Of a stretch of DNA of 37,118 nt, positions 2,464 to 36,139 are shown in pieces. The notes beneath the pieces were generated by a model. The model was not told the DNA's origin and did not search any database. It saw nothing but the letters and a program-made list of their open reading frames with translations. A program made the position numbers and the translations under genes. Positions within the stretch are counted from its first letter, which is position 1; every line of letters starts with the position of its first letter. Origin of the DNA: an uncultured Collinsella sp. (lineage in GTDB: Bacteria > Actinomycetota > Coriobacteriia > Coriobacteriales > Coriobacteriaceae); NCBI GenBank assembly GCA_949287065.1, contig CASEEV010000050.1, forward strand, positions 1 through 37,118. The letters run 5' to 3'.

Positions 2464-3512
2464 CGGGGCGTTGCCGCAGCGGCTCCGACCGCCGGCAACC
2501 CATCGGCCGCAGGACGCGCGCCGCTCTCGTCTATGCCCTTCTCGCCTGCGCCCTTGCCGCCCTGTTTGCGGCAAGCGTCTGCGTCGGCAGCGCCGCAACG
2601 AGCCCCGCCGACGTGATCGCCACGCTGGCGCAGGGCCCGGGCGCCGGAAACCTCGGCCAGATCATCTGGCAGATCAGGCTTCCGCGCGCGATCATGACGG
2701 TGCTTTTGGGAGGCGCGCTCTCGCTTGCCGGCTTCTTGCTGCAGACGTTCTTTGCCAACCCCATCGCCGATCCCTTCGTGCTCGGCGTATCGTCGGGCGC
2801 GCGGCTCGCCGTGGCGCTCGTCATGATCGCCGTGCTCGGCGCCAACCAAGCGCTCAGCCCGGCCGCCTCGGTCGGCGCCGCGCTCGCAGGCTCGCTCGCC
2901 ACCATGTGCGTTGTGCTCGCCATGGCGCGGCGCGTGCGCAGCCAGGGCATGCTCATCGTCGCCGGCGTCATGGTGGGCTACGTGTGCCAGGCGGCAACCA
3001 ACTTTCTTGTGGCCTTTGCCGACGATCAGAGCATCGTGAACCTGCACAACTGGTCGCAGGGCAGCTTCTCGGGAACCGCGTGGCCCGAGGTTGCCGCGGC
3101 GGCGGTCACGGTTGCGACGGTGTCTGCCGCCGTGTTTGCGCTTTCCAAGCCTCTTGGCGCCTACCAGCTCGGCGAGAACTACGCGCGCAGCGTCGGCGTG
3201 AACGTCATGGCGCTCCGCATGCTCATCATCGTGGCGTCCACGCTGCTCGCGGCGTGCGTCGCCGCCTTTGCCGGGCCCATCTCGTTTGTGGGGATCGCCG
3301 CCCCTCACCTGGCAAAGCTCGCCGTAGGCTCTTCCAGGCCGATCGTCGTAACGCCCGCGTGCCTGCTCACGGGCGCGGTCTTCTGCTGCGGCTGCGATCT
3401 TGTGGCGCGCACGCTCTTCGCGCCTGTCGAGCTCTCGGTAAGCGCCGTGACCGCTGTCTTCGGCGCGCCCGTGGTCATAGCCCTCATGCTCAAGAAACGA
3501 GGCCTCAGATGA
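2460..3512 (+). CDS. FecCD-family ABC importer permease
   Basis: 350 residues, typical for the FecCD/BtuC family (about 330-350). The ATG overlaps the stop of the binding-protein gene (ATGA), implying translational coupling. After a short basic N-terminus (MTGRCRSGSDRR) come about nine to ten hydrophobic helices. Family hallmarks are visible: the LPRAIMTVLLGGALSLAGFL segment early on, the NPIADPFVLGVSSGA loop, and near the C-terminus GPISFVGIAAPHLA, the region that contacts the ATPase. Together with its neighbours it forms the membrane channel of an importer for siderophore, heme or corrinoid. Family call is secure; substrate is not. Confidence 0.92.
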   Translation: MTGRCRSGSDRRQPIGRRTRAALVYALLACALAALFAASVCVGSAATSPADVIATLAQGPGAGNLGQIIWQIRLPRAIMTVLLGGALSLAGFLLQTFFANPIADPFVLGVSSGARLAVALVMIAVLGANQALSPAASVGAALAGSLATMCVVLAMARRVRSQGMLIVAGVMVGYVCQAATNFLVAFADDQSIVNLHNWSQGSFSGTAWPEVAAAAVTVATVSAAVFALSKPLGAYQLGENYARSVGVNVMALRMLIIVASTLLAACVAAFAGPISFVGIAAPHLAKLAVGSSRPIVVTPACLLTGAVFCCGCDLVARTLFAPVELSVSAVTAVFGAPVVIALMLKKRGLR

Positions 3513-25397: not shown

Positions 25398-27989
25398 ATG
25401 AGCACCTTTTTACGCATCGTGCTGCGCGACCTCAAGCGCATCCTCACCAACCCTGTGGGGCTCGTCATCACCTTGGGTGTCTGCATCATCCCCTCGCTGT
25501 ACGCGTGGACCAACATCGTTGCCAACAACGACCCGTACGAAAACACCTCGACGGTTCCGGTTGCCGTTGCGGTTCTCGACCGCGGCGCCAACGTGGAAGG
25601 GCTCGGCAACATCAACGCCGGCAGCATGGTGCGCGAGCGCCTTGAGGAGAACCACCAGCTTGGCTGGACGTTTGCACCAAGCGCAGACGCGGCGCAGGAG
25701 GGCGTGAAGGCGGGCAGGTACTACGCCGCGTTCGTCATACCCGAGGACTTTACCGAAGGGCTCGCCGGGGTGCTCGACGGCCATGTTGAGCCGGCGCGCA
25801 TTGCCTACTACGTTAACGAGAAAGAAAACGCCGTCGCGCCCAAGGTGACCGACACCGGCGCCGGGGAGCTCGAATCGCAGATCGCCGACGAGTTTGCCTC
25901 GGTCGTGGGCAAAACCGTCACCGAGAAGCTCCAGGGTGCGCTGGGAGGCGCGTCGGAGGACCTCGACGCCGCGGGATCTTCAGCGCAGGACGATTTGACG
26001 CAGACCGCGGACCTCCTCGAGAACCTCGCCGACACGTTGGATGGGACGAAGGGCACCTTCGCGTCTGCCCGCACGTCGGTGGACGACGCCCGCGCGACGA
26101 TCGGCGAGCTTACCGGGGCGAGCGAGACCTTGGGAGCCGACCTGGCGCGCGGGCGCGACCTTCTCGGCACAGCGCGCTCTGAGGCGCAGGCGAACTTCTC
26201 GGCCCTCTCCGCTGCGCTCGGCACGGGCTCGTCTGCCATCGCCGGCATCTCGTCGACCGCAGCCTACGACATCGGCGCGCTCGCCGGCGACGTAGGCTGG
26301 GCCCAGGGCAAGCTCGACGCCGCTCTCTCGGAGCTCAGGTCGCTGAACGGCACCGTCGTCTCGCTCAAGGGATCGCTCGAAGACGTGCGCACGGTCGTTG
26401 CGAGCCTCGACGCTCCCACCGAGGACGCGGTCCAGATCAAAACCGAGATCGAGAAGGAGCTTGACGGCGAGATCGATGTTCTCGTGAGCCTTTCCGACAC
26501 GCAGCTCGCGCAGATCGACGGCCTTCAGCAGGCGTCCGACAACGTCAAGGCGTCGGCCGACAGCGTGCGCAACCTCGCCGACGCAGTCAACGACGCCGTG
26601 CGCACCTCCTCAGACGAGCTCGCCGCCCTGCAAAACGACATCGCCGCAACGGCTGCGCCCAAGGCGTCGGAGGGGCTCGACGCCTTCGCCGACGCCGGCG
26701 CCTCGGTATCTGCCGCAGCGAACTCCCTGCCTGCGCTTCTCGGCAACGCCGACACCTCGCTTAAAGCGCTCGACGGCCTGCTCGAGGAGGGGTCCGACGT
26801 GGCGCAGGACGCGGCGGAGTCGCTACGCGGCAACGCCGATGACATGCGCAATCTTGCCCATGAGCTCTCTGTGCTGCAAAACGCGCGGAACTTCTCGCAC
26901 CTCAAAGACGCGCTCGGCATCGACCCCGAGGACGTGGGCGCCTTCATGGCGTCGCCGGTGTCCGTGCGCAGCGACGCGGTCTACCCGGTGAGGAACTACG
27001 GTTCGGGCGTGGCGCCGTTTTACACGAACCTCGCGCTGTGGGTGGGCGGCTTCGTACTTGTTGCGATCTATCACCTCGAGGTCGACGAGGAGGGCGTGGG
27101 CGGCATCGCGCCGTGGCAGGCGTTTGCCGGGCGCGGCCTTTTGCTCGCACTGATCGGACAGGTGCAGGCGCTCATCTGCTGCGCGGGCGACCTCGCTCTC
27201 GGCGTCCAGTGCGTATCGCCTGCAGCATACCTGGGGACGGGCGTGGTCGCGTCGTTTGTGTACGTGGGGATTGTCTATGCGCTGGCAGCGAGCTTCAAGC
27301 ACATCGGCAAGGCGCTCGGCGTGCTGCTCGTGGTGCTCCAGATACCGGGCGCGTCGGGGCTCTACCCCATTCAGATGCAGCCCGGCTTTTTCCAAGCGCT
27401 GGGGCCTTGGCTGCCGTTCACGTACGGCATCAACGCCATGCGCGAAGCCGTGGCGGGCTTCTACGGTTTTGCGTACGCGCACGACCTGTTTGTGCTCTTC
27501 CTGTTTCTGCTTCCCGCGCTCGCGCTCGGGCTCGGCGTGCGGCGGCGCCTCGGCAACGTGGTGGGGCTCTTTGATCGCGAGCTCGCAGGCGGCGATCTCT
27601 TCATAGCCGAGCGGCAAACGGCTGCCGGGAACAGCCCGGGAATCGACGGCATCGTCCGCGCCCTCATGGCCACCAACGCCTACCGCGCGCAGACCATGAA
27701 GCGGGCAAAGCGTTTTGAGCGGTCGTACCCGCGCCTTGTGCGCCGCGGTTTTATCGGGCTTGCGGTCGCGGCGCCCGTGCTCGTGCTTCTCGGACTCGTC
27801 GTGCCGGGCAAGCTTGATCTTCTCGCCTGGTGGACGCTTGCGCTCACCGTCGGGTGCATGTACCTCGTCGTCGTTGAATACCTGCACGATCGGCTTGCGC
27901 GCGAGCTCGAACTTGCGCGCCGCACTCCGGCTCAGCTCAACGAGCAGCTGGGGCGCGCGATCGAGCGCCAGCGAAAGGAAGAACAGTGA
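25398..27989 (+). CDS. YhgE/Pip-family membrane protein 1
   Basis: 863 residues. ATG 25398 has AAAGGCAGG upstream. One membrane helix near the N-terminus (VGLVITLGVCIIPSLYAW) is followed by the typical YhgE start (NDPYENTSTVPVAVAVLD) and a long outside helical region (about 150-530) with repeated Asp/Ala/Leu heptad-like stretches, probably coiled coils. Five to six more membrane helices follow (about 545-740), then a further C-terminal pair near 790-840. This is the layout of B. subtilis YhgE, Lactococcus Pip (phage infection protein) and the T7SS component EsaA. The molecular role is unclear: receptor, transport or ABC-2/MmpL-like export. A GTGA overlap couples it to the second copy. Confidence 0.92.
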   Translation: MSTFLRIVLRDLKRILTNPVGLVITLGVCIIPSLYAWTNIVANNDPYENTSTVPVAVAVLDRGANVEGLGNINAGSMVRERLEENHQLGWTFAPSADAAQEGVKAGRYYAAFVIPEDFTEGLAGVLDGHVEPARIAYYVNEKENAVAPKVTDTGAGELESQIADEFASVVGKTVTEKLQGALGGASEDLDAAGSSAQDDLTQTADLLENLADTLDGTKGTFASARTSVDDARATIGELTGASETLGADLARGRDLLGTARSEAQANFSALSAALGTGSSAIAGISSTAAYDIGALAGDVGWAQGKLDAALSELRSLNGTVVSLKGSLEDVRTVVASLDAPTEDAVQIKTEIEKELDGEIDVLVSLSDTQLAQIDGLQQASDNVKASADSVRNLADAVNDAVRTSSDELAALQNDIAATAAPKASEGLDAFADAGASVSAAANSLPALLGNADTSLKALDGLLEEGSDVAQDAAESLRGNADDMRNLAHELSVLQNARNFSHLKDALGIDPEDVGAFMASPVSVRSDAVYPVRNYGSGVAPFYTNLALWVGGFVLVAIYHLEVDEEGVGGIAPWQAFAGRGLLLALIGQVQALICCAGDLALGVQCVSPAAYLGTGVVASFVYVGIVYALAASFKHIGKALGVLLVVLQIPGASGLYPIQMQPGFFQALGPWLPFTYGINAMREAVAGFYGFAYAHDLFVLFLFLLPALALGLGVRRRLGNVVGLFDRELAGGDLFIAERQTAAGNSPGIDGIVRALMATNAYRAQTMKRAKRFERSYPRLVRRGFIGLAVAAPVLVLLGLVVPGKLDLLAWWTLALTVGCMYLVVVEYLHDRLARELELARRTPAQLNEQLGRAIERQRKEEQ

Positions 27990-30211
27990 GCGGTTTTGGC
28001 AATCTTCTCCGCCATGACGTCCGGCGCATGCGGGCCAACGTCATCAGCCTTGTCGTGCTCTTCGGCATCGTGGTGGTGCCTTCGTTTTACGCCTGGTTCA
28101 ACATTGCCGGGAGCTGGGACCCCTACGGCAACACCAAGAACCTCGCGGTTGCCGTAGCGTCTTCGGACAAGGGGTACGCAAGCGACCTTCTCCCGGTGAG
28201 GCTGAACCTCGGCAAGCGCGTGGCCGCCGACCTCAGCACCTCGGAGAGCATCGGATACGTGTCGGTGAGCGAGGAGAAGGCACGCGAGGGCGTGCGATCG
28301 GGGGCGTACTACGCCGCCCTCATCATTCCCGAGGACTTTTCGGAGCGCTTGCTCACGGGGGCCGTGGACGGCGAACCCGCAGAGGTTGTCTTTTTGCAGA
28401 ACGAGAAGCTCAACGCCATCGCCGAGATCGTCACCAACAAGGCGGCGAGCGCCGTGAAACGCGACATCAACGCGAGCTTTGCCCGCGCGGTGGCCGACGT
28501 GGGAACCGGCGCGCTCGACGAGCTCGGCAACGTGCTCGGCGACGACGAGCTCGAGCGCTTTGCGGGCAACCTCAACCGAGCGCTCGAGACCTCCGCCGAC
28601 GCGCTTGACCGTGCGTCGGCGGATATGCGCGGGGCAGACGAGCTGCTCGCCTCGACGCAGGGGCTTCTCGGGTCGAGCTCGACGGGTTATCAGGACCTTG
28701 CCGCTCCCGCCAACGACGCAGCCGACGCGCTTGCCAGCACGGCCGACGGCATCCGCGACGCGCAAGACGCACTCGATGCCGCCGAGACCTCTGCCGGCAA
28801 CGCGTTCACGACGAGCGCGCAGGCCCTCGGTAGCGTAAACGATGCCATCGACCAGGCGTTTGCCACGGCTGAAGGGCAAGCAAACGGCATCGGCGACGGC
28901 CTTGCCAAGGCGCAGGCCGCCTGCGACGAGCAGATTGCCGCATTGCAGAAACTGGCCGACCGACTCGACGGTCAGGACGCGCTCACCAAGCGTTTTGAAA
29001 AGCACTACGAGGTGGGCTCGGTCGAGTACGATCGCGTGCACGAGGTGACGCTGACGATCGAGGGCCTCGCCGATCGCGTACAGCAGGCCATCAACGAGCT
29101 GACCGAGCTTTCGGACGCTCTGCAGAAAACGCAGGGCAACCTCGAGCAGGGAACCACCGATGCAAAAGGCGCGCAGGAGGAGCTCAAGCAACTCGCAGGC
29201 AACGCCGGCAAGGACCTCGCTGAGCTGAAGGACAGCTTCGACGGCTCAGTGGCACCCGCGCTCGAAGACCTGGCAGGCATGGTGGAGCAGGCTTCCGCTC
29301 AAACCAGGACAATTGCCGGCAACCTTGCCGGCACGCTGGAAAGCGCCGACGCTGCTGCTACCGACGCACGCGACGATCTTGGCGCTGCGCGCGCTACGCT
29401 TGCCGACACCGCCGAAGCGCTCGATCAAAAGGCAACCGATCTGCGCGACCTACACGACCGTCTCGGATCCGCGCTCGAAGGGCACGATACCGATCAGATT
29501 CGCTCGATCCTCACCGCCGAGCCCGCTGAGATCGGCGCGTTTATCGCCGAGCCGGTAAAGATCGACCGCACGCCGGTGTTCCCCGTCGAAAACAACGGGT
29601 CCGCCATGGCGCCGTTTTACTCAACGCTCGCCATCTGGATCGGAGGCGTGGTCATGGCGGCGCTTCTCAAGGCGGTTCCCGGAACAGGCGTGCGCGAAAG
29701 CCTCGGCACGGGCGAAACCGCTGCCTACCTGGCACGTCTTGGCCTGTTCGCCGGCATCGGCCTTTTGCAGGCAACGCTTATCTGGGCCGGCAACGCGCTC
29801 TTTCTCGGGGTGCAATGCGCCCATCCGATGCTTGCGTTTCTCGCCGGCTGGGTCGCATCGTTTGTGTTTGTGAACATCATCTTCTCGCTTACCGCCTCGT
29901 TTGGAGACGTGGGCAAGGCGGCGGCGGTCGTACTCATGGTCGTGCAGGTAGCTGGGGCAGGAGGCACCTTCCCGCGGCAGATGCTTCCGTCTGTTTTTCA
30001 GGCCATCTACTCTTGGCTGCCCTTTGTGCACGCCGAGAACGCTTTCCGCGCCGCCCAGTTCGGCATCTGGAACAACGACTTCTGGCTCGAGCTTGCTCGG
30101 TTAGGCGCTTATGTGGTGCCGGCGCTCGTGCTCGGCCTTGTGCTGCGCCGCCCCCTCATTGGCCTGAACGAAAAGGTGGAAGAAAAACTCGCGGCGACCA
30201 AGGTCATGTAA
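27986..30211 (+). CDS. YhgE/Pip-family membrane protein 2
   Basis: 741 residues. The GTG start overlaps the stop of the first copy (GTGA), so the two are translationally coupled and probably form a heteromer. It has the same plan: N-terminal helix (NVISLVVLFGIVVVPSFYAW), SWDPYGNTKNLAVAVASSD, a long outside helical stalk with coiled-coil-like repeats (about 150-520), and six C-terminal helices (FYSTLAIWIGGVVMAALL onward). It lacks the extra C-terminal helix pair of copy 1 and is about 120 residues shorter. It ends 42 nt before a good terminator. The divergent TetR gene implies inducible expression. Confidence 0.92.
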   Translation: MSGFGNLLRHDVRRMRANVISLVVLFGIVVVPSFYAWFNIAGSWDPYGNTKNLAVAVASSDKGYASDLLPVRLNLGKRVAADLSTSESIGYVSVSEEKAREGVRSGAYYAALIIPEDFSERLLTGAVDGEPAEVVFLQNEKLNAIAEIVTNKAASAVKRDINASFARAVADVGTGALDELGNVLGDDELERFAGNLNRALETSADALDRASADMRGADELLASTQGLLGSSSTGYQDLAAPANDAADALASTADGIRDAQDALDAAETSAGNAFTTSAQALGSVNDAIDQAFATAEGQANGIGDGLAKAQAACDEQIAALQKLADRLDGQDALTKRFEKHYEVGSVEYDRVHEVTLTIEGLADRVQQAINELTELSDALQKTQGNLEQGTTDAKGAQEELKQLAGNAGKDLAELKDSFDGSVAPALEDLAGMVEQASAQTRTIAGNLAGTLESADAAATDARDDLGAARATLADTAEALDQKATDLRDLHDRLGSALEGHDTDQIRSILTAEPAEIGAFIAEPVKIDRTPVFPVENNGSAMAPFYSTLAIWIGGVVMAALLKAVPGTGVRESLGTGETAAYLARLGLFAGIGLLQATLIWAGNALFLGVQCAHPMLAFLAGWVASFVFVNIIFSLTASFGDVGKAAAVVLMVVQVAGAGGTFPRQMLPSVFQAIYSWLPFVHAENAFRAAQFGIWNNDFWLELARLGAYVVPALVLGLVLRRPLIGLNEKVEEKLAATKVM

Positions 30212-30288: not shown

Positions 30289-30338
30289 ATTGCCCCGTTC
30301 GGACCCGTCCCATCCTGAATGCCAGCCTTGTCTCACCC

Positions 30339-30419
30339 ACGCCACGCTTCCGACAATCCGCGGCCACCGGCGCCACGCTTCCAGCACTTCAGGGCCCCGT
30401 TTTGTCGGAATTGTGGCGT
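30339..30419. repeat. Inverted repeat A of the structured region
   Basis: Left arm ACGCCACGCTTCCGACAA (30339-30356) and right arm TTGTCGGAATTGTGGCGT (30402-30419) agree at 16 of 18 positions. A partial direct copy of the left arm (CGCCACGCTTCCAGCA) begins at 30371 inside the loop. Confidence 0.7.
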
Positions 30420-30524
30420 CGGTCGCGAAGCGGGGGGGCGCCGCGCCGTCGGGCGCGGGCCCGGCATCGCCGGACAGGGGCCCGCCGCGGCGGGACGAAC
30501 CGGTTCACGCACGCCGGCCCCCGC

Positions 30525-30669
30525 AGGTTTTTCCGGTTATTCGAGTACTTTTAAGGAAACCCCGAGTAGACCGGGGTTCACGGCTCGCGTTTCCGCAGGT
30601 CAGAGCGTCGCCGGGTCCCGGTCTACCCGGCAGGTCCCGAAAAGTGCTCGAATATCCGTCGAAACCCGG
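30525..30669. repeat. Inverted repeat B, about 145 bp
   Basis: The left side (30525-30578) contains TATTCGAGTACTTTT and GTAGACCGGG. The right side, reverse-complemented, contains TATTCGAGCACTTTT and GTAGACCGGG in the same order, with GGTTT-like ends beyond. The arms are about 50-55 bp with scattered mismatches. Both strands translate to a similar GYSSTF(R/K)-like peptide simply because of the symmetry. Confidence 0.75.
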
Positions 30670-30818
30670 GAGGAAGACTGGGCCCGACGTCCTCCCTGCC
30701 GCCCGGCGCCCTTTCGAGCCGTGCCCCAACCCCTCCGGGCCCGGCGCCCGCCCCTCGCGACGCCCCTCGCCCCGGTGCCCCCGCGCCCCGCGCGGCGGTC
30801 GCTCCGCTATTCCGGCCG

Positions 30819-30977
30819 GAACTGCTCAAAAAATCAAATAATAAGTCGTTACTGAGTGCCCGGGACAGGATGGTCGCATATCGCCATATCCGCATCCTGG
30901 GCGAACGCGCACGGATGCATGCGCCCGGAGGCCCCCGGCGCCGGAAAAGACTGATTATCCGATTTTTTGAGCAGTTC
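30819..30977. repeat. Inverted repeat C with 29-bp arms
   Basis: The left arm (30819-30847) begins GAACTGCTCAAAAAATC. The right arm (30949-30977) read in reverse matches 26 of 29 positions. A smaller dyad sits inside (CAGGATG at 30876 against CATCCTG at 30893), nested within the 100-bp loop. The A/T tracts stand out from the GC-rich surroundings. Confidence 0.8.
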
Positions 30978-31025
30978 GCCGCGGAAACTCCGGGCATGCG
31001 CGCCGCAGGCCGGTTGGAATAGAGC

Positions 31026-31055
31026 GAGGCCGGCTCCCCGAAGGAAGCCGGCCTC
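31026..31055 (-). terminator. Hairpin downstream of the NifX-like gene
   Basis: GAGGCCGGCT and AGCCGGCCTC pair perfectly (10 bp, continuing past one mismatch). It lies about 120 nt after the NifX-like stop on the minus strand. Only TCGCTCTATT follows, so the T-run is weak. Confidence 0.5.
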
Positions 31056-31174
31056 AAAGCGGACCAGGTTATGCACGCGGAAGCGAGGGCGCCCGCAGCG
31101 TCGAGCCCGAGTCATGGCCGAAGAGCGAGGGCCGAGGCGCCCGCTGGACGCGGCCGCAGCGTCTGACCCGAACG

Positions 31175-31537
31175 TCAGTGATGGCAGGCTTGGTCAGAAC
31201 CCATTATCGGAAGCTCGCCGGCGGCAGCCATGCGAGCGACCTCGCCCACGTTGGGCGTCTGGTTTTCAAAGAACACCGTAATGCCCGCCTGGGCAAATCC
31301 CATCATCGGACGCATGCCCATGCCAGCTGCCACAATAGCATCGATCCCGTTGTCGGCAAGAATGCCCACCGGACGCATGCAGCCGCCCTCCTCATGAGGC
31401 GGATTCTCGATGATCTCGGTAGCGGTGATGTCGCCGCCCTCAACAGTCACAACGGTAAAGCAATCGCAGTGGCCAAAATGGCCGGAACGCTCGCACTCCA
31501 TGCCACCAGCGCCCATGGTCGGAATCGCGATCTTCAT
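31175..31537 (-). CDS. NifX/NifB-type iron-molybdenum cofactor-binding family protein
   Basis: 120 residues. The start is ATG 31537, because AAGGAG is 7 nt upstream; the ATG two codons earlier would sit almost on the RBS. It begins MKIAIPTMGAGG and has the family pattern ERSGHFGHCDCFTVV, then NPPHEEGGCMRPVGILAD and VAAGMGMRPMMGF, ending GSDQACHH with metal-binding-like Cys/His. These stand-alone dinitrogenase-iron-molybdenum-cofactor-domain proteins are frequent in anaerobes without nitrogenase and are thought to bind an Fe-S or metal cluster; their role is not settled. No nif genes are in the window. It is monocistronic, with a plausible promoter at 31607-31634. Confidence 0.9.
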   Translation of the reverse strand: MKIAIPTMGAGGMECERSGHFGHCDCFTVVTVEGGDITATEIIENPPHEEGGCMRPVGILADNGIDAIVAAGMGMRPMMGFAQAGITVFFENQTPNVGEVARMAAAGELPIMGSDQACHH

Positions 31538-31606
31538 ATGCATGCTCCTTGATTTGCGTATCGGTGCGCGCTTCTCTTCCGCACGCACCTTGTGCTACGA
31601 GTCCAC

Positions 31607-31634
31607 ATTCTAACGCTGTGGCAAAACGCCGCAA
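31607..31634 (-). promoter_or_regulatory. Possible promoter of the NifX-like gene
   Basis: On the minus strand TTGCGG (31634-31629), a 16-nt spacer and TAGAAT (31612-31607) lie about 70 nt before the ATG. The -10 is good; the -35 matches only its first three bases. Confidence 0.4.
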
Positions 31635-31648
31635 CGCAACGCACGCGA

Positions 31649-32758
31649 TCACGAGGCACGCGGCTCCTCAAGTCGGCCGCCGAACCAGTCCTCGATCATA
31701 TGGCGCGCAATCGACGCGCGACCGGGCAGTTCAAGTTCGCCCGACGCAACGGCACGCGTCAGCTCCTCGCGCGTGAACCACCGCGCCGCGCCCACTTCCT
31801 CGTGGTCAACGCGAATGTCCGGGCTGAGCGCCCGGGCGCGAAACCCCAGCATGATCGACGCGGGAAACGGCCACGGCTGCGATCCGAGGTAGCGCACCTC
31901 TCCCAGCTCGATGCCGACCTCCTCCATGGTCTCGCGGCGAACCGCACGCTCGAGGCTCTCCCCTGCCTCGACAAACCCCGCCGAAACCGAGTGAAACGCC
32001 GGTCGCCACGCCGTGTTGTGCTGCAGCAGCAGGCGGTCCTGGTCGTCGACGATCGCCGTGATAACGGCGGGTTCGATGCGCGGAAAGAGCAGCCGATTGC
32101 CGTCGTCGGCGTTGGTGCAGGTCTGCGCCCAACCAGCAAGCGCCGGCCGCACGGGCGCGCCGCATGCGGGACAGTAGCGCTGCATGTTCTGCCACATGCT
32201 CACCGCAACTGCGCTCGTGGCAAGACCAGCGTCGCGCGCCGAGGCACAGGGAGCAAACGACCTGAGCTCGACCCAATCGAACGCGCCCAGCGCTCGGGAA
32301 GGAAAGGTATCGTACTGGCAGCCAAACTCACGGTCTACGCTCGTCCGCCCGCGTCGAGGACCGTTCGTGGCACGCGTAATATCAAGAGCTACGTAGCTGA
32401 CCGGCGGATCTACCGTGCGGTCGGTACCCAAAAAGACGAACAGCCGCCCTGTCTCGTTGAGCTCGGAACGCACCTCTTTGCTGCCGAGAAGCGCGAGCTG
32501 CATGGCGCCTCCCGGAGCGGACGCGTCGGGGCGCGGCGCGGCAGGGTCGTACGTGCAATCCAACGCACCAGGCGAAACGTCCGCGCTGCGTTTGGGCACC
32601 GCCAGAAGCCCGTTGTTTACCAGAAGCACCTTTGTTGCATCGTCAGCAAGGAGGTGCTCGATCAGCCCCTCTTCGCCGCGTCGGTTAACATCGTAGTCAA
32701 CCGCCGACTGGGCCAAGAGCAGCCGCTTCATAAAGCCCGATTCATGCGACGAGAACAT
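31649..32758 (-). CDS. nudC: NAD+ diphosphatase / NADH pyrophosphatase (NudC)
   Basis: 369 residues from ATG 32758 (AAAGGA 5-6 nt upstream), preferred over ATG 32788, which has no RBS. The C-terminal Nudix box begins GFVEAGESLERAV at 261 and continues RRETMEEVGI. It is followed by the NudC-specific SQPWPFPAS at 293-301, which binds the NADH substrate. Before it is the zinc ribbon, with Cys196, Cys199 and Cys214; the expected fourth Cys (position 217, CTNA) is Ala. The N-terminal domain is long, as in actinobacterial and eukaryotic NudC. It hydrolyses NAD(H) to NMN(H) and AMP, and homologues remove NAD caps from RNA. The missing Cys could weaken zinc binding. Confidence 0.92.
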   Translation of the reverse strand: MFSSHESGFMKRLLLAQSAVDYDVNRRGEEGLIEHLLADDATKVLLVNNGLLAVPKRSADVSPGALDCTYDPAAPRPDASAPGGAMQLALLGSKEVRSELNETGRLFVFLGTDRTVDPPVSYVALDITRATNGPRRGRTSVDREFGCQYDTFPSRALGAFDWVELRSFAPCASARDAGLATSAVAVSMWQNMQRYCPACGAPVRPALAGWAQTCTNADDGNRLLFPRIEPAVITAIVDDQDRLLLQHNTAWRPAFHSVSAGFVEAGESLERAVRRETMEEVGIELGEVRYLGSQPWPFPASIMLGFRARALSPDIRVDHEEVGAARWFTREELTRAVASGELELPGRASIARHMIEDWFGGRLEEPRAS

Positions 32759-32809
32759 AGCGTCCTTTTCCACCGCTCCTCCGTCCATTCGGCACGCCCG
32801 TCAGCCGTC

Positions 32810-32878
32810 TTAGTCATGGAAAAACACAAAGAGCATGTACCCGAGCATGCTCAGCACCAAACAAGAGACCTTCCACAT
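32810..32878 (-). CDS. Possible 22-residue membrane peptide upstream of nudC
   Basis: On the minus strand ATG 32878 opens a 22-codon frame (MWKVSCLVLSMLGYMLFVFF, then HD), ending TAA at 32810. It is almost entirely one hydrophobic helix, and the next gene in the same direction (nudC) starts 51 nt later. The RBS is poor (a GGGG directly at the ATG), and the frame lies just after the terminator of the neighbouring gene. It may be a small membrane protein or chance; the composition is unusual for this GC-rich DNA. Confidence 0.35.
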   Translation of the reverse strand: MWKVSCLVLSMLGYMLFVFFHD

Positions 32879-32894
32879 CCCCGCACAAAACAAC

Positions 32895-32924
32895 AGCGCC
32901 GGAGCCCACACGGACCCCGGCGCT
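32895..32924 (-). terminator. Terminator of the anchored repeat-protein gene
   Basis: AGCGCCGG (32895-32902) and CCGGCGCT (32917-32924) form the stem. On the minus strand GTTGTTTTGTG follows it. It lies 57 nt after the stop at 32981, in the right orientation. Confidence 0.75.
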
Positions 32925-32980
32925 CAGTTAATGCCCTTGCCACCAAAGAACAGGCCTTGCTTTAGATCGAGCTGGCAAGT

Positions 32981-34105
32981 CTACGATTCCGACGCGTCAA
33001 TCTTCTGCTGAACCTGTGCGAGCTTCGCCGTAATGCGCGCCGTCACCTCGACGTAGTAGTACTGATCTGCCGTTGAGAGCGAGTCCTGGTCAATGCTTTG
33101 GATCGCTTCCGTAGTCTTTGCATATTGCGCCATCATGGTCGCGTACTGAACGTACATGCTCGGATCATTTGCGTCGTATTTCTCGAAGAACTTAACAAAT
33201 TCGTCGAAGAACTTCTCGTATTCGTCCATCTGAGACTTGAATTCAAGCGACACGCCGTTGGCGTCGGTTTGCCCTGCTTTGGACTCGGCGCCCGAAGACT
33301 CCTTGCCTTCGGCCTTCTTTTCGGCATCGTCGCTCTTCTTGGGTTCCTCGGCAGGCTCGGGTTCCTCTTCGGCGGCGTTGTCTTCAGCTTCTGCCTCCGC
33401 GTCGTCGGGCAGGTCAACCGTAACGCCCATGGTGTTGAAGCCCTCGTAATCGAGCGCAAGCGACACGCCTTCCGCGTTCTCTGCACGATAGCGCTCGGAG
33501 CTGCGATCATAATCAACCGTAAAGCCGGCGTCGGCGCAGGCATCGATATACGCCTGGAACGCATCGGAATCTGTCTCGCCAACTCGAGCAACGAAGCGAT
33601 CGCTGCTGTCGGAGGCAATCTCGCCAACCGTAGACTCGGGCGCGGGAATAAGCGCGCCCGCACCGCTCTTGGGCCAGGAGATCGTGCCCATCTCTACGGG
33701 CGCGTCCAGCGTTATGGAAAACTCGTCTTGGGACTCATAGTAATACAGGTCCAGATGCGCGCCCTCTTCGGAATACGCACTATACGAGCCCGCATCGCTC
33801 TTCGCGTCAATCGTGAAGCCGATTTCTTTGCAGTCCTCGACATATGCCGCAAAGTCGCTCGACGAGCATTCCTCAACGTTTGCGCTCAGATAGTCATCGC
33901 TGCTGGAGATAATCTTGCCCTTGTCCGTCGGCGGGTCGGGCAAAAGCGTTGCCAACCCGGACGTGGGCCACTCGAGCGGCTCGGGGCGCGAGGTCACGCA
34001 GCTCATGATCTGAATCACCAGCACCACAACGGCCAGTATTGCAATGATCCTCAGGCACCCACGCTTCTTGCCGGCCTTCTTGGATTTAACGGGCTCCCAC
34101 TCCAT
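32981..34105 (-). CDS. Secreted/anchored protein with two tandem repeats and a helical C-terminus (DUF6591-like)
   Basis: 374 residues from ATG 34105 (GGAGG 5-7 nt upstream). A basic N-terminus and membrane segment (LRIIAILAVVVLVIQIMSC, 18-36) end in Cys36, a possible lipobox (IMSC). Two homologous repeats follow: 45-135, starting EWPTSGLATLLPDP, and 143-232, starting SWPKSGAGALIPAP. Each has the pattern of an acidic loop, a CKEIGFTID / CADAGFTVD segment and a SYSAYSEEG / RYRAENAEG segment. An acidic/Lys linker (234-283) leads to a helical tail (EFKSQMDEYEKFFDEFVKFF, 288-307, continuing to 374). It resembles DUF6591-type lipoproteins of Firmicutes as I remember them. Function unknown. It is divergent from the PH-like/SPFH pair. 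Confidence 0.8.
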   Translation of the reverse strand: MEWEPVKSKKAGKKRGCLRIIAILAVVVLVIQIMSCVTSRPEPLEWPTSGLATLLPDPPTDKGKIISSSDDYLSANVEECSSSDFAAYVEDCKEIGFTIDAKSDAGSYSAYSEEGAHLDLYYYESQDEFSITLDAPVEMGTISWPKSGAGALIPAPESTVGEIASDSSDRFVARVGETDSDAFQAYIDACADAGFTVDYDRSSERYRAENAEGVSLALDYEGFNTMGVTVDLPDDAEAEAEDNAAEEEPEPAEEPKKSDDAEKKAEGKESSGAESKAGQTDANGVSLEFKSQMDEYEKFFDEFVKFFEKYDANDPSMYVQYATMMAQYAKTTEAIQSIDQDSLSTADQYYYVEVTARITAKLAQVQQKIDASES

Positions 34106-34179
34106 GCGCGCCTCCTCGAGGATCGATCGCCGCCAGCTTGCGGCACTGGCCTCATTGTGGATTTGGCCGAAGCGCCTTT

Positions 34180-34228
34180 CATCAGTTGCCAACTGAATTT
34201 TCAGCACCGATTCAGCTGGCAACTGATG
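34180..34228. repeat. 19-bp inverted repeat in the divergent spacer
   Basis: CATCAGTTGCCAACTGAAT (34180-34198) and ATTCAGCTGGCAACTGATG (34210-34228) agree at 18 of 19 positions around an 11-nt loop. It sits between the starts of the anchored repeat protein and the PH-like gene, about 60 nt before the latter. It could be an operator shared by both genes or a small palindromic insertion. No T-run follows. Confidence 0.75.
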
Positions 34229-34287
34229 CAAAAATCCAGCCCCTTCTTACGATAAAAACATCGATCTCCATCTACTAGGGAGCCCTT

Positions 34288-34884
34288 ATGGCAAAGCTCA
34301 AGCTCGCAAAAAACGAGCTTCTCATACTTCAAGAACGATCCGTCATCTTGAACGACGGAGGCACCGACCAGAATCTCGACGAGCTTGTTCTCACCAGCAA
34401 GAACCTCATTCTCGTCGATACGCGGAGAGAAGGCCTCTTTCGCTCTGCAACCTACTGCAAGCGATTCCCCCTCACGACCCTCCAGCACGCCGCCGATGGT
34501 CCGCAGGCGCTCGTTGCCAAGCTCAACGGAACCTATTGGCTGCAAGTTCTCTTTGACAGCGAAGTCGTGAGGCTTCGTTTTCCCAACGGCTCGCGAAGAA
34601 CCTGCGAGCGCTGGGCATATGCCGTGCGCCAGGTTGCCTCTGGAAACACCACCAACATCCCGAGCGAAGACTCGCTGCCGCCCGATATCGCCAACCTCGT
34701 AGACAGCGCTAAAGACCTTGTCGGCGGTTTCGTCGTCGGCGGCAAACCCAAGATCGACCAGAAGGCAGCCCCCGCGAGACCTGCCCTTAGGAGCATCCGT
34801 TGCCCCGGGTGCCATGCACCGCTCACCGGCAAGCAGGGCAGCGCCGCAACATGCCCGTACTGCGACACCGTCACAACGCTCTAA
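34288..34884 (+). CDS. PH-like domain plus C-terminal zinc ribbon protein
   Basis: 198 residues. ATG 34288 follows AGGGAG by about 6 nt. Residues 1-115 alternate strands and end in a helix (SRRTCERWAYAVRQV), resembling a bacterial PH/GRAM-like domain: KNELLILQERSVILNDGG, ELVLTSKNLILVDTRREG, WLQVLFDSEVVRLRFP. A linker (about 120-168) leads to a zinc ribbon with CPGC and CPYC (about 173-194). No membrane helix. It is followed 18 nt later by the SPFH gene, so the two form an operon. The pairing recalls B. subtilis ydjG/ydjI, where zinc-ribbon and SPFH proteins accompany a PspA homologue; no pspA is visible here. The domain call for the N-terminus is tentative. Confidence 0.75.
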   Translation: MAKLKLAKNELLILQERSVILNDGGTDQNLDELVLTSKNLILVDTRREGLFRSATYCKRFPLTTLQHAADGPQALVAKLNGTYWLQVLFDSEVVRLRFPNGSRRTCERWAYAVRQVASGNTTNIPSEDSLPPDIANLVDSAKDLVGGFVVGGKPKIDQKAAPARPALRSIRCPGCHAPLTGKQGSAATCPYCDTVTTL

Positions 34885-34902
34885 GCAGATTCGGAGTAAA
34901 CC

Positions 34903-36087
34903 ATGGGCCTCTTTGACGCAGCGTTCGACTCCATCGGCGGCGTGCTTTCCGATCAATGGAAAGACATCGTCACCTCCGCTCCCTTCGACGAGCACACGCT
35001 CGTAGCGCCCGGCATTCGCAAGCGTACGCAAGACGGGCACGGCAACAATTTCGGGTCGGAGGACATCCTCAGCAACGGTACCGTTATCTTTGTGCCCGAG
35101 AACACCGCCGCCTTCGTGTTTAGCCAATCGGGAATCGAGCAGGTCATCACCACGCCGGGCGGCTACGAATACCGAAACGGAGAGGCATCAGTCTTTGACG
35201 AGAAGGACCGCAAAGAAACAGGCGTCGGGCAGATTCTTTTCGATCAGGCAGCCGAGCGCTTCGGGTTCTCCGGCATCGCTCCCGAAGAGAAACGCGTCGC
35301 GTTCGTCAACTTGAGGGAGATCCGAAACGTCAAGTTCGGCACGCGCGGACCCCTTGTCTATCACGATCTGTTCTACGAAACCGATCTCGAGCTGTTTGCG
35401 TACGGGTCGTTTACCGTTCGCGTGACGAACCCGACTCTGTTTGTCCGCAATTTCGTCCCTGCCGGAGTCATCTCCTACTCGTTCGACGACCGCACCGTGC
35501 GCGAGCAGATGATCGCCGAGTTTCTCCACTCCTTCAACGTTGCCGTGAACGAGCTCTCCGCAGAACACCGCATCTCGGAGCTTCCGTCCCAAGCCAACGA
35601 CATCCGCAACCGCATCTCGTCCGACGAAGGCAACGCGGGCACCTGGGCTTCGCGGTTCGGCATGGAACTTGTCGCCGTTGCCGTAGAGAACATCGAGTTC
35701 TCCGACGAGTCCCGCGAACTCGTCAGGCAGTTCTCTGAGAAGAAGATGAGCGTCGCCGCGTACGAGGACGTTTCCGAGCACGCCGCGAACGTGGCCGCCC
35801 AGCAGATGATCGCGCAGGGCGTGCGCGACAATGGCCTCGGCGATGCGGGCGGGATGATCTTTGGCATGAACCTCGCTGACGGCTTGAGTCCGAGAAACGC
35901 CTCGCAGGTATCCCCGCAGGCTGCCAGCATCCCAACAGAGACCGCTGCTGCAAAACCGGAAGCACATGCCGCGGCAAGCCTCTCCGATCAAATTGCCCTC
36001 GTCAAGCAGCTCAAGGAGCTTCTTGACGCCGGGATTCTGACTGAGGAAGAGTTCGAGAAAAAGAAGCGAGACGTACTCGGACTCTAA
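34903..36087 (+). CDS. SPFH-domain protein (YdjI / virion-core-like) with C-terminal SHOCT
   Basis: 394 residues, starting MGLFDAAFDSIGGVLSDQWK, the typical opening of YdjI-like proteins (an N-terminal amphipathic helix rather than a membrane span). The SPFH region (about 60-260) includes SNGTVIFVPENTAAFVFSQS, NLREIRNVKFGTRGP, YGSFTVRVTNPTLFV and GMELVAVAVENIEFS. A Gly/Ala/Pro-rich linker (about 300-360) leads to a short SHOCT motif (LVKQLKELLDAGILTEEEFE) at the end. Such proteins assemble on membranes, and relatives link to envelope stress and PspA. It is co-transcribed with the PH-like/zinc-ribbon gene and probably terminated by the hairpins at 36140-36268. Confidence 0.88.
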   Translation: MGLFDAAFDSIGGVLSDQWKDIVTSAPFDEHTLVAPGIRKRTQDGHGNNFGSEDILSNGTVIFVPENTAAFVFSQSGIEQVITTPGGYEYRNGEASVFDEKDRKETGVGQILFDQAAERFGFSGIAPEEKRVAFVNLREIRNVKFGTRGPLVYHDLFYETDLELFAYGSFTVRVTNPTLFVRNFVPAGVISYSFDDRTVREQMIAEFLHSFNVAVNELSAEHRISELPSQANDIRNRISSDEGNAGTWASRFGMELVAVAVENIEFSDESRELVRQFSEKKMSVAAYEDVSEHAANVAAQQMIAQGVRDNGLGDAGGMIFGMNLADGLSPRNASQVSPQAASIPTETAAAKPEAHAAASLSDQIALVKQLKELLDAGILTEEEFEKKKRDVLGL

Positions 36088-36139
36088 AAGGGTCTCCCAA
36101 TCCGTGCCCGCCGCCGGTCTTTCTCGTGGACGATGAAAT

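Follow-up and report, generated by a model that had tools for sequence, protein, structure and literature searches.

The stretch of DNA analyzed here (the window, 37,118 nt of an uncultured Collinsella sp.) carries, between two convergent genes, a block at 30334-31175 in which three palindromes, A, B, and C, stand in succession and are followed by a repeated 3'-end element, D/E. Below, G000 designates the own genome, G001 its sister genome, and other G numbers the further genomes compared. The features are the following:

27986-30211, + strand: flanking gene encoding a membrane protein of 741 aa; identity to G001 is 97% as far as the G001 contig extends
30334-30423, + strand: module A, three 17-nt units (ACGCCACGNTNCCGACA) at a spacing of 31 nt, two of them direct and one inverted
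30424-30525, unstranded: A-B linker, which travels with A and B in A-B mosaics (query positions 46-459 matched unbroken at several loci)
30526-30667, + strand: module B, palindrome of about 141 nt with outer arms GGTTTTTCCGGTTATTCGAGTACTTTT, inner stem CGAGTAGACCG/CGGTCTACCCG, and dyad center CC-GCA-GG
30816-30980, + strand: module C, palindrome of about 165 nt with arms GAACTGCTCAAAAAATCAAATAAT... and dyad center TCCTGG
31003-31175, + strand: module D/E, G+C-rich hairpin (31026-31055) and 3' tail running to the convergent gene's stop codon; further copies exist elsewhere
31175-31588, - strand: flanking convergent gene, 137-aa ORF (gene called at 31175-31543)

A preliminary description of this region had reported a gene-free block of three successive imperfect inverted repeats, with arms differing by substitutions rather than by gaps and with a further dyad inside the loop of one repeat, and each of these points is borne out. 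Indeed, no gene is called between 30211 and 31175, and a repeat search found the three repeats where they had been placed, with arm pairs that all align ungapped: A (30335-30365/30393-30423; 31 nt, 81% complementary), B (30519-30575/30617-30673; 57 nt, 74% complementary), and C (30784-30850/30946-31012; 67 nt, 70% complementary, with a 32-nt core 87.5% alike), the 95 nt between the arms of C containing the further dyad, which is conserved. The block extends beyond the limits first drawn, as the repeated D/E reaches the stop codon at 31175. Folding had been suggested as a check and, computed as single-stranded DNA, B (z = -5.66) and full C (z = -6.71) fold far better than shuffled sequence, with 0/200 shuffles as good in both cases, while A does so less markedly (z = -2.70, 2/200 shuffles as good); both strands of the block fold alike.

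With regard to its surroundings, the block sits at a synteny boundary: the left flank is 97% identical to G001, whose contig also stops near there, and positions 31176-36100 of the window have no match in G001, G002, or G003. The D/E element recurs in a constant setting, with 15 of the 16 D hits of G000 facing the 3' end of a neighboring gene (the other lies at a contig end), as do 11 of 13 in eight G001 loci (one exception, one contig end). Its hairpin is G+C-rich without a T run, and D/E is possibly a terminator.

The block is not due to chance, since it is repeated: with 30289-31057 as query, blastn returned 53 matches in the own genome. Homologous copies, which the preliminary description had proposed to seek genome-wide and in relatives, were thus found, the same repeat families being present in G001; in a plain DNA search, 5 of 40 genomes gave a match, the own genome included, three of the five weakly. 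Contig C65 of G000 carries an A-B-C copy (87%), and loci elsewhere in this genome hold A-B, A-C-D, C-D, or A-B-C-D mosaics or lone modules. Profile and motif scans of the G000 loci examined counted 18 B, 13 C, 16 D, and 75 A units, the last figure allowing up to three mismatches and including some units, inside genes, that are there by chance. Nearly all of the A, B, and C units are intergenic: set against the called genes, hits of B and of C fall between them, except that a C in L175 shares 38 nt with the end of one gene, and none of the 19 B-like elements of G004 overlaps a called gene. Rather than a single RNA or a single transposon, the block represents several independent repeats, each dispersed in the genome, combined in a mosaic. 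The compound miniature element that had been suggested comes close to this: three palindromic families, dispersed independently of one another, are stacked here and occur in other combinations elsewhere.

Orthologous loci of the two sister genomes also differ in arrangement: B is inverted relative to A between L153 and L184, and the A units differ in number and orientation between L152 (6431-6509) and L182 (11705-11807). The G000-G001 comparison, in which the G001 stretches had been chosen as element-bearing, did not reveal, for any individual B or C, a clean empty site accompanied by a target duplication. A candidate clean insertion of B at L160/L180 was set aside, as an intergenic stretch is replaced there, not simply inserted.

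The geometry of the modules is regular. The A units keep a strict spacing of 31 nt, which corresponds to about three turns of the helix, whether they are in direct or in inverted order, and this spacing holds for 22 of the 24 same-strand neighbors closer than 80 nt in G000 and for 15/16 in eight G001 loci; B half-sites listed as pairs are 87 nt apart. The exact dyad centers, CC-GCA-GG in B and TCCTGG in C, are among the best conserved positions.

The large structured RNA that had been offered as the other reading of the block fares worse. An RNA, or a bidirectional terminator, conserved for its RNA fold would agree with the strong folds, although these were computed as single-stranded DNA, and with the orientation of D/E toward gene 3' ends, but no Rfam covariance model matches the block at gathering score (weak miRNA and sRNA hits fell below gathering and were disregarded), and the two strands fold alike. 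Moreover, the arm covariation whose absence across strains had been named as counting against the first interpretation is absent from the own-genome B family, the B copies of G000 and G001 giving 0.821 within a copy versus 0.831 between copies, with A-C mismatches in 4/20 at one arm pair. This makes it unlikely that an RNA stem is being maintained in the own-genome B type, and we regard the RNA reading as a whole as highly improbable.

Across the family, a B covariance model found full-length matches in 50 of 65 family genomes and a C model found matches in five of the 65; these matches were counted on both strands, so that true copy numbers are lower, down to about half. The B-like elements of other genera keep the length, the inner stem (CGAGTAGACC or CGAGCACACC), and the center CCGCAGG. 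Their outer arms of 20-30 nt are lineage-specific and quite different between genera, yet self-complementary within an element: the outer-arm match is 0.90 to the partner arm, 0.75 to another copy of the same genome, and 0.35 to another genus. This comparison comprises 73 rows, that is, 72 elements of 21 genomes (L111 and L224 being one element), and leaves out L095 and L099, where the locus is cut, and L098, which is the element of L218. Simple clustering sorted the B-like arms into 16 types, a single G055 row joining the G000/G001 type by loose linkage. Covariation does appear in the arm type of G004, G009, and G013 (0.942 within versus 0.864 between, 0/5000 permutations), a figure that pools three genomes. 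Further palindromes of 114-159 nt with other arms occur in Collinsella aerofaciens (L292 8188-8346 and 22593-22706; L293 33554-33702) and could represent additional families of this type.

Each of A, B, and C adjoins a nuclease-type gene of about 350 aa in G000. The nuclease gene of locus L170 runs to 2932 with B at 3034-3174, and the nuclease match of L150 runs to 2633 with C at 2681-2841, the element being present on one side only in both cases, while on contig C80 (L165) a 364-aa ORF lies between two A arrays. This last locus provides the one A-array/nuclease presence difference of the G000-G001 comparison: the orthologous locus of G001 has one A array and no 364-aa gene, which fits a unit of array plus gene having been either inserted or lost. 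In G004, a 353-aa gene, reached via a 1.4-kb half-site pair, lies between two B-like elements in inverted orientation (L258), and a scan of the retrieved loci placed the nuclease family beside B-like elements in G000 (L170), G055 (L266), and G008 (L267) and beside C-like elements in G000/G001 (L150/L197), G009, and G004. In longer flanks, L266 and L267 each have a second B-like element, 94% identical to the first and in direct orientation in L266, 84% identical and inverted in L267, so that flanking on both sides is seen in three other genera (L258, L266, and L267). Because most nuclease loci were encountered through their proximity to an element, the hairpin-nuclease adjacency is partly ascertained, which is the chief weakness of the association; the second palindromes of L266 and L267 played no part in locus selection, and the background of such palindromes is 6 in 131,655 bases (other loci and window) and 3 in 100 kb of C. 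aerofaciens. No palindromes were seen at the family member of G016 (L268), a genome also without B or C covariance-model matches.

Starting from the protein instead, relatives of the nucleases were found (tblastn, PLSDB) only in C. aerofaciens and, distantly and for the A type, in Tsukamurella; viral contigs and phages yielded no nuclease relatives. Across five Collinsella places, hairpins adjoin 3/3 intact genes and 0/2 truncated ones. The intact C-type gene H12 has a palindrome 47 nt downstream, found automatically; intact H11 has an imperfect palindrome about 30 nt downstream, recognized by eye after failing the automatic criteria; and intact A-type H13 has 6 and 4 hairpin arm sites on its two sides, with no such site elsewhere in 100 kb or in L287-L289. 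No palindrome lies beside either of the truncated genes H9 and H10, nor was one found at Tsukamurella H14; a second Tsukamurella match is H18.

As for the identity of the proteins, intact members of the B/C nuclease family are 332-396 aa long. Their matches to Pfam MTES_1575 are weak (E-values from 6e-6 to 9e-4, all below the curated cut-off, several members matching nothing), those to DUF559 are weak and below cut-off or absent, and NCBIfam gave nothing specific for the family. MTES_1575 and DUF559 are restriction-enzyme-like PD-(D/E)XK families. In an alignment of nine members (A3), residues D252, E267, H274, and D283 are invariant in 9/9, in the expected region. Judging from these sequence features, the partner of B and C is probably a small, DNA-cutting PD-(D/E)XK (Vsr/DUF559-like) nuclease. 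PDB 4p99 (E-value 1.3e-4) was set aside as a relative, as no stretch passes on its own. The A-type protein has no Pfam family, matches AbiEi weakly, and resembles the B/C nucleases only faintly by profile comparison (hhalign probability 4%); its PDFYW...GEFDG motif suggests that it is a nuclease as well. When 13 proteins were placed in a maximum-likelihood tree, the B-associated nucleases, joined by the two truncated Collinsella proteins, formed a clade (support 99/99) and the C-associated nucleases a separate one (100/99), L288 and L268 having long branches and an unsure place; G000 and G004 each have one nuclease of the B kind and one of the C kind.

The catalytic region of the B/C nucleases also matches, weakly (E-value 0.016), PDB 3r3p, annotated "Mobile intron protein," which we take to be I-Bth0305I. 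The nuclease might also be a selfish or defense endonuclease for which the hairpins serve as sites of binding, autoregulation, or termination and which does not move them. The position of the hairpin 47-155 nt downstream of C-type genes, the CCGCAGG motif upstream of two of them, and the weak AbiEi match of the A-type protein would fit such a role. However, this explanation accounts neither for tens of copies far from the gene nor for B-like elements on both sides of it, and we judge it quite unlikely. Unlike Vsr/EDxHD endonucleases, the nucleases described here do not split a homing site but have whole hairpins on their flanks, and they possess a long extra N-terminal region. The two upstream CCGCAGG motifs (L269 2818 and L270 2819) lie outside any detected palindrome.

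Miniature inverted-repeat transposable elements (MITEs) such as Correia, RUP, and ERIC are 100-200 nt long, bear inverted repeats, and lie between genes, all of which recalls the present elements. If A, B, and C were ordinary MITEs, their terminal inverted repeats would once have been moved by a DDE transposase, and the nuclease genes would be passengers or frequent intergenic neighbors. The inverted arms, the intergenic dispersal, and the mosaics would follow, as would the independent variation of arms within the own family, expected of terminal repeats, and IS256 elements do occur in relatives. No transposase was found between cognate arms, however, and no target duplication or DDE partner for the elements; half-site pairs flanking a gene, sought as a sign of an autonomous element, were absent from G000/G001, the search in G004 and G009 covering one arm type only. 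In addition, length and center stay while the ends change between lineages, which is the reverse of a MITE, and the nuclease clades follow the element type. On balance, we consider this explanation unlikely. A 1.57-kb arm pair of G009, a candidate autonomous element, proved to result from the insertion of an IS256 into a B-like element; this IS256-family insertion (L259 1713-3310) has an 8-nt duplication, GGGCCTAC, at the inner stem, read from the sequence.

The closest parallel is offered by REPINs and their RAYTs. RAYT is the enzyme class named for the spread of such palindromes (PMC3116915, PMC2817692): RAYT genes are flanked by cognate REPs (PMC2817692), and three REPIN flavors exist within one genome, each beside its own RAYT (PMC3116915). 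The repeats of the block are likewise multi-copy extragenic inverted doublets forming hairpins, the feature by which REPINs are recognized. REPIN/RAYT systems and BIMEs share with the present case dispersed extragenic hairpins, mosaics, and several families per genome, each with an enzyme gene, and in REPIN/RAYT as here this gene is flanked by cognate hairpins and changes together with them. The differences are that the enzyme here is PD-(D/E)XK/Vsr-like rather than a Y1 HUH transposase, and that the elements are 140-165 nt long, combine a conserved core with exchanged arms, and number tens rather than hundreds of copies.

The repeats could also be REPINs whose RAYT (Y1) transposases have since been lost from the own lineage. 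Y1_Tnp genes are found in 53 of 65 family genomes, mostly as frames of 250-350 aa, and in 5 of 14 control genomes, and the hairpin form and intergenic habit of the elements fit. Against this reading, G000 and G001 have no Y1_Tnp gene despite their many copies, and among the 18 comparable RAYT-type loci (of 20), same-genome elements flank none of the genes and no shared stretch exceeds 13 nt, which makes such a history very unlikely in our view and leaves RAYT unsupported as the partner enzyme. Since the enzyme that defines REPIN/RAYT was searched for and is not the one present, we do not file the system under that name.

On the whole, we favor, with a probability of roughly one half, the reading in which A, B, and C are non-autonomous dispersed hairpins, each with a cognate PD-(D/E)XK (Vsr/DUF559-like) nuclease of about 350 aa adjoining or lying between its copies, in a REPIN/RAYT-like arrangement with a different enzyme. 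The repetition and intergenic position of the hairpins, their regular geometry, the constant core with lineage-specific arms, the neighboring nuclease genes, and the nuclease clades specific to element type are all observed, while binding, cutting, and mobilization of the hairpins by the nuclease are what we infer from this arrangement. The nuclease would bind the arms and inner motif of its own hairpin, folded in single-stranded or cruciform DNA, and would then cut at the hairpin or at a target, after which repair would copy the hairpin into new intergenic sites; between lineages, arms and nuclease would change together, much as RAYTs and REPINs do. Counting against this reading are the lack of a clean empty site for an individual B or C, the one-sided elements of L170 and L150, the palindrome-free genes L268, H9, and H10, the independent variation of arms in the own-genome B family, the weakness of the nuclease family matches, and the faint similarity of the A-type protein to the B/C nucleases. 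More tentatively, and with a somewhat lower probability, this would be a second, independently evolved equivalent of REP/RAYT, in which hairpins are spread family-wide by cognate PD-(D/E)XK nucleases, with three pairs in one genome, their repeats stacked in the window, and arms diversifying in step with the nuclease while the core stays the same. We found no paper on this repeat-nuclease pair in the open-licence PMC literature.

The spread and persistence of short palindromes in bacterial genomes still await an explanation. If our reading is true, a nuclease family equipped with cognate hairpins would be a case independent of RAYT that could be examined in vitro using a single protein and a single oligonucleotide, and it would give a meaning to uncharacterized nucleases of gut Coriobacteria that are now "hypothetical proteins."
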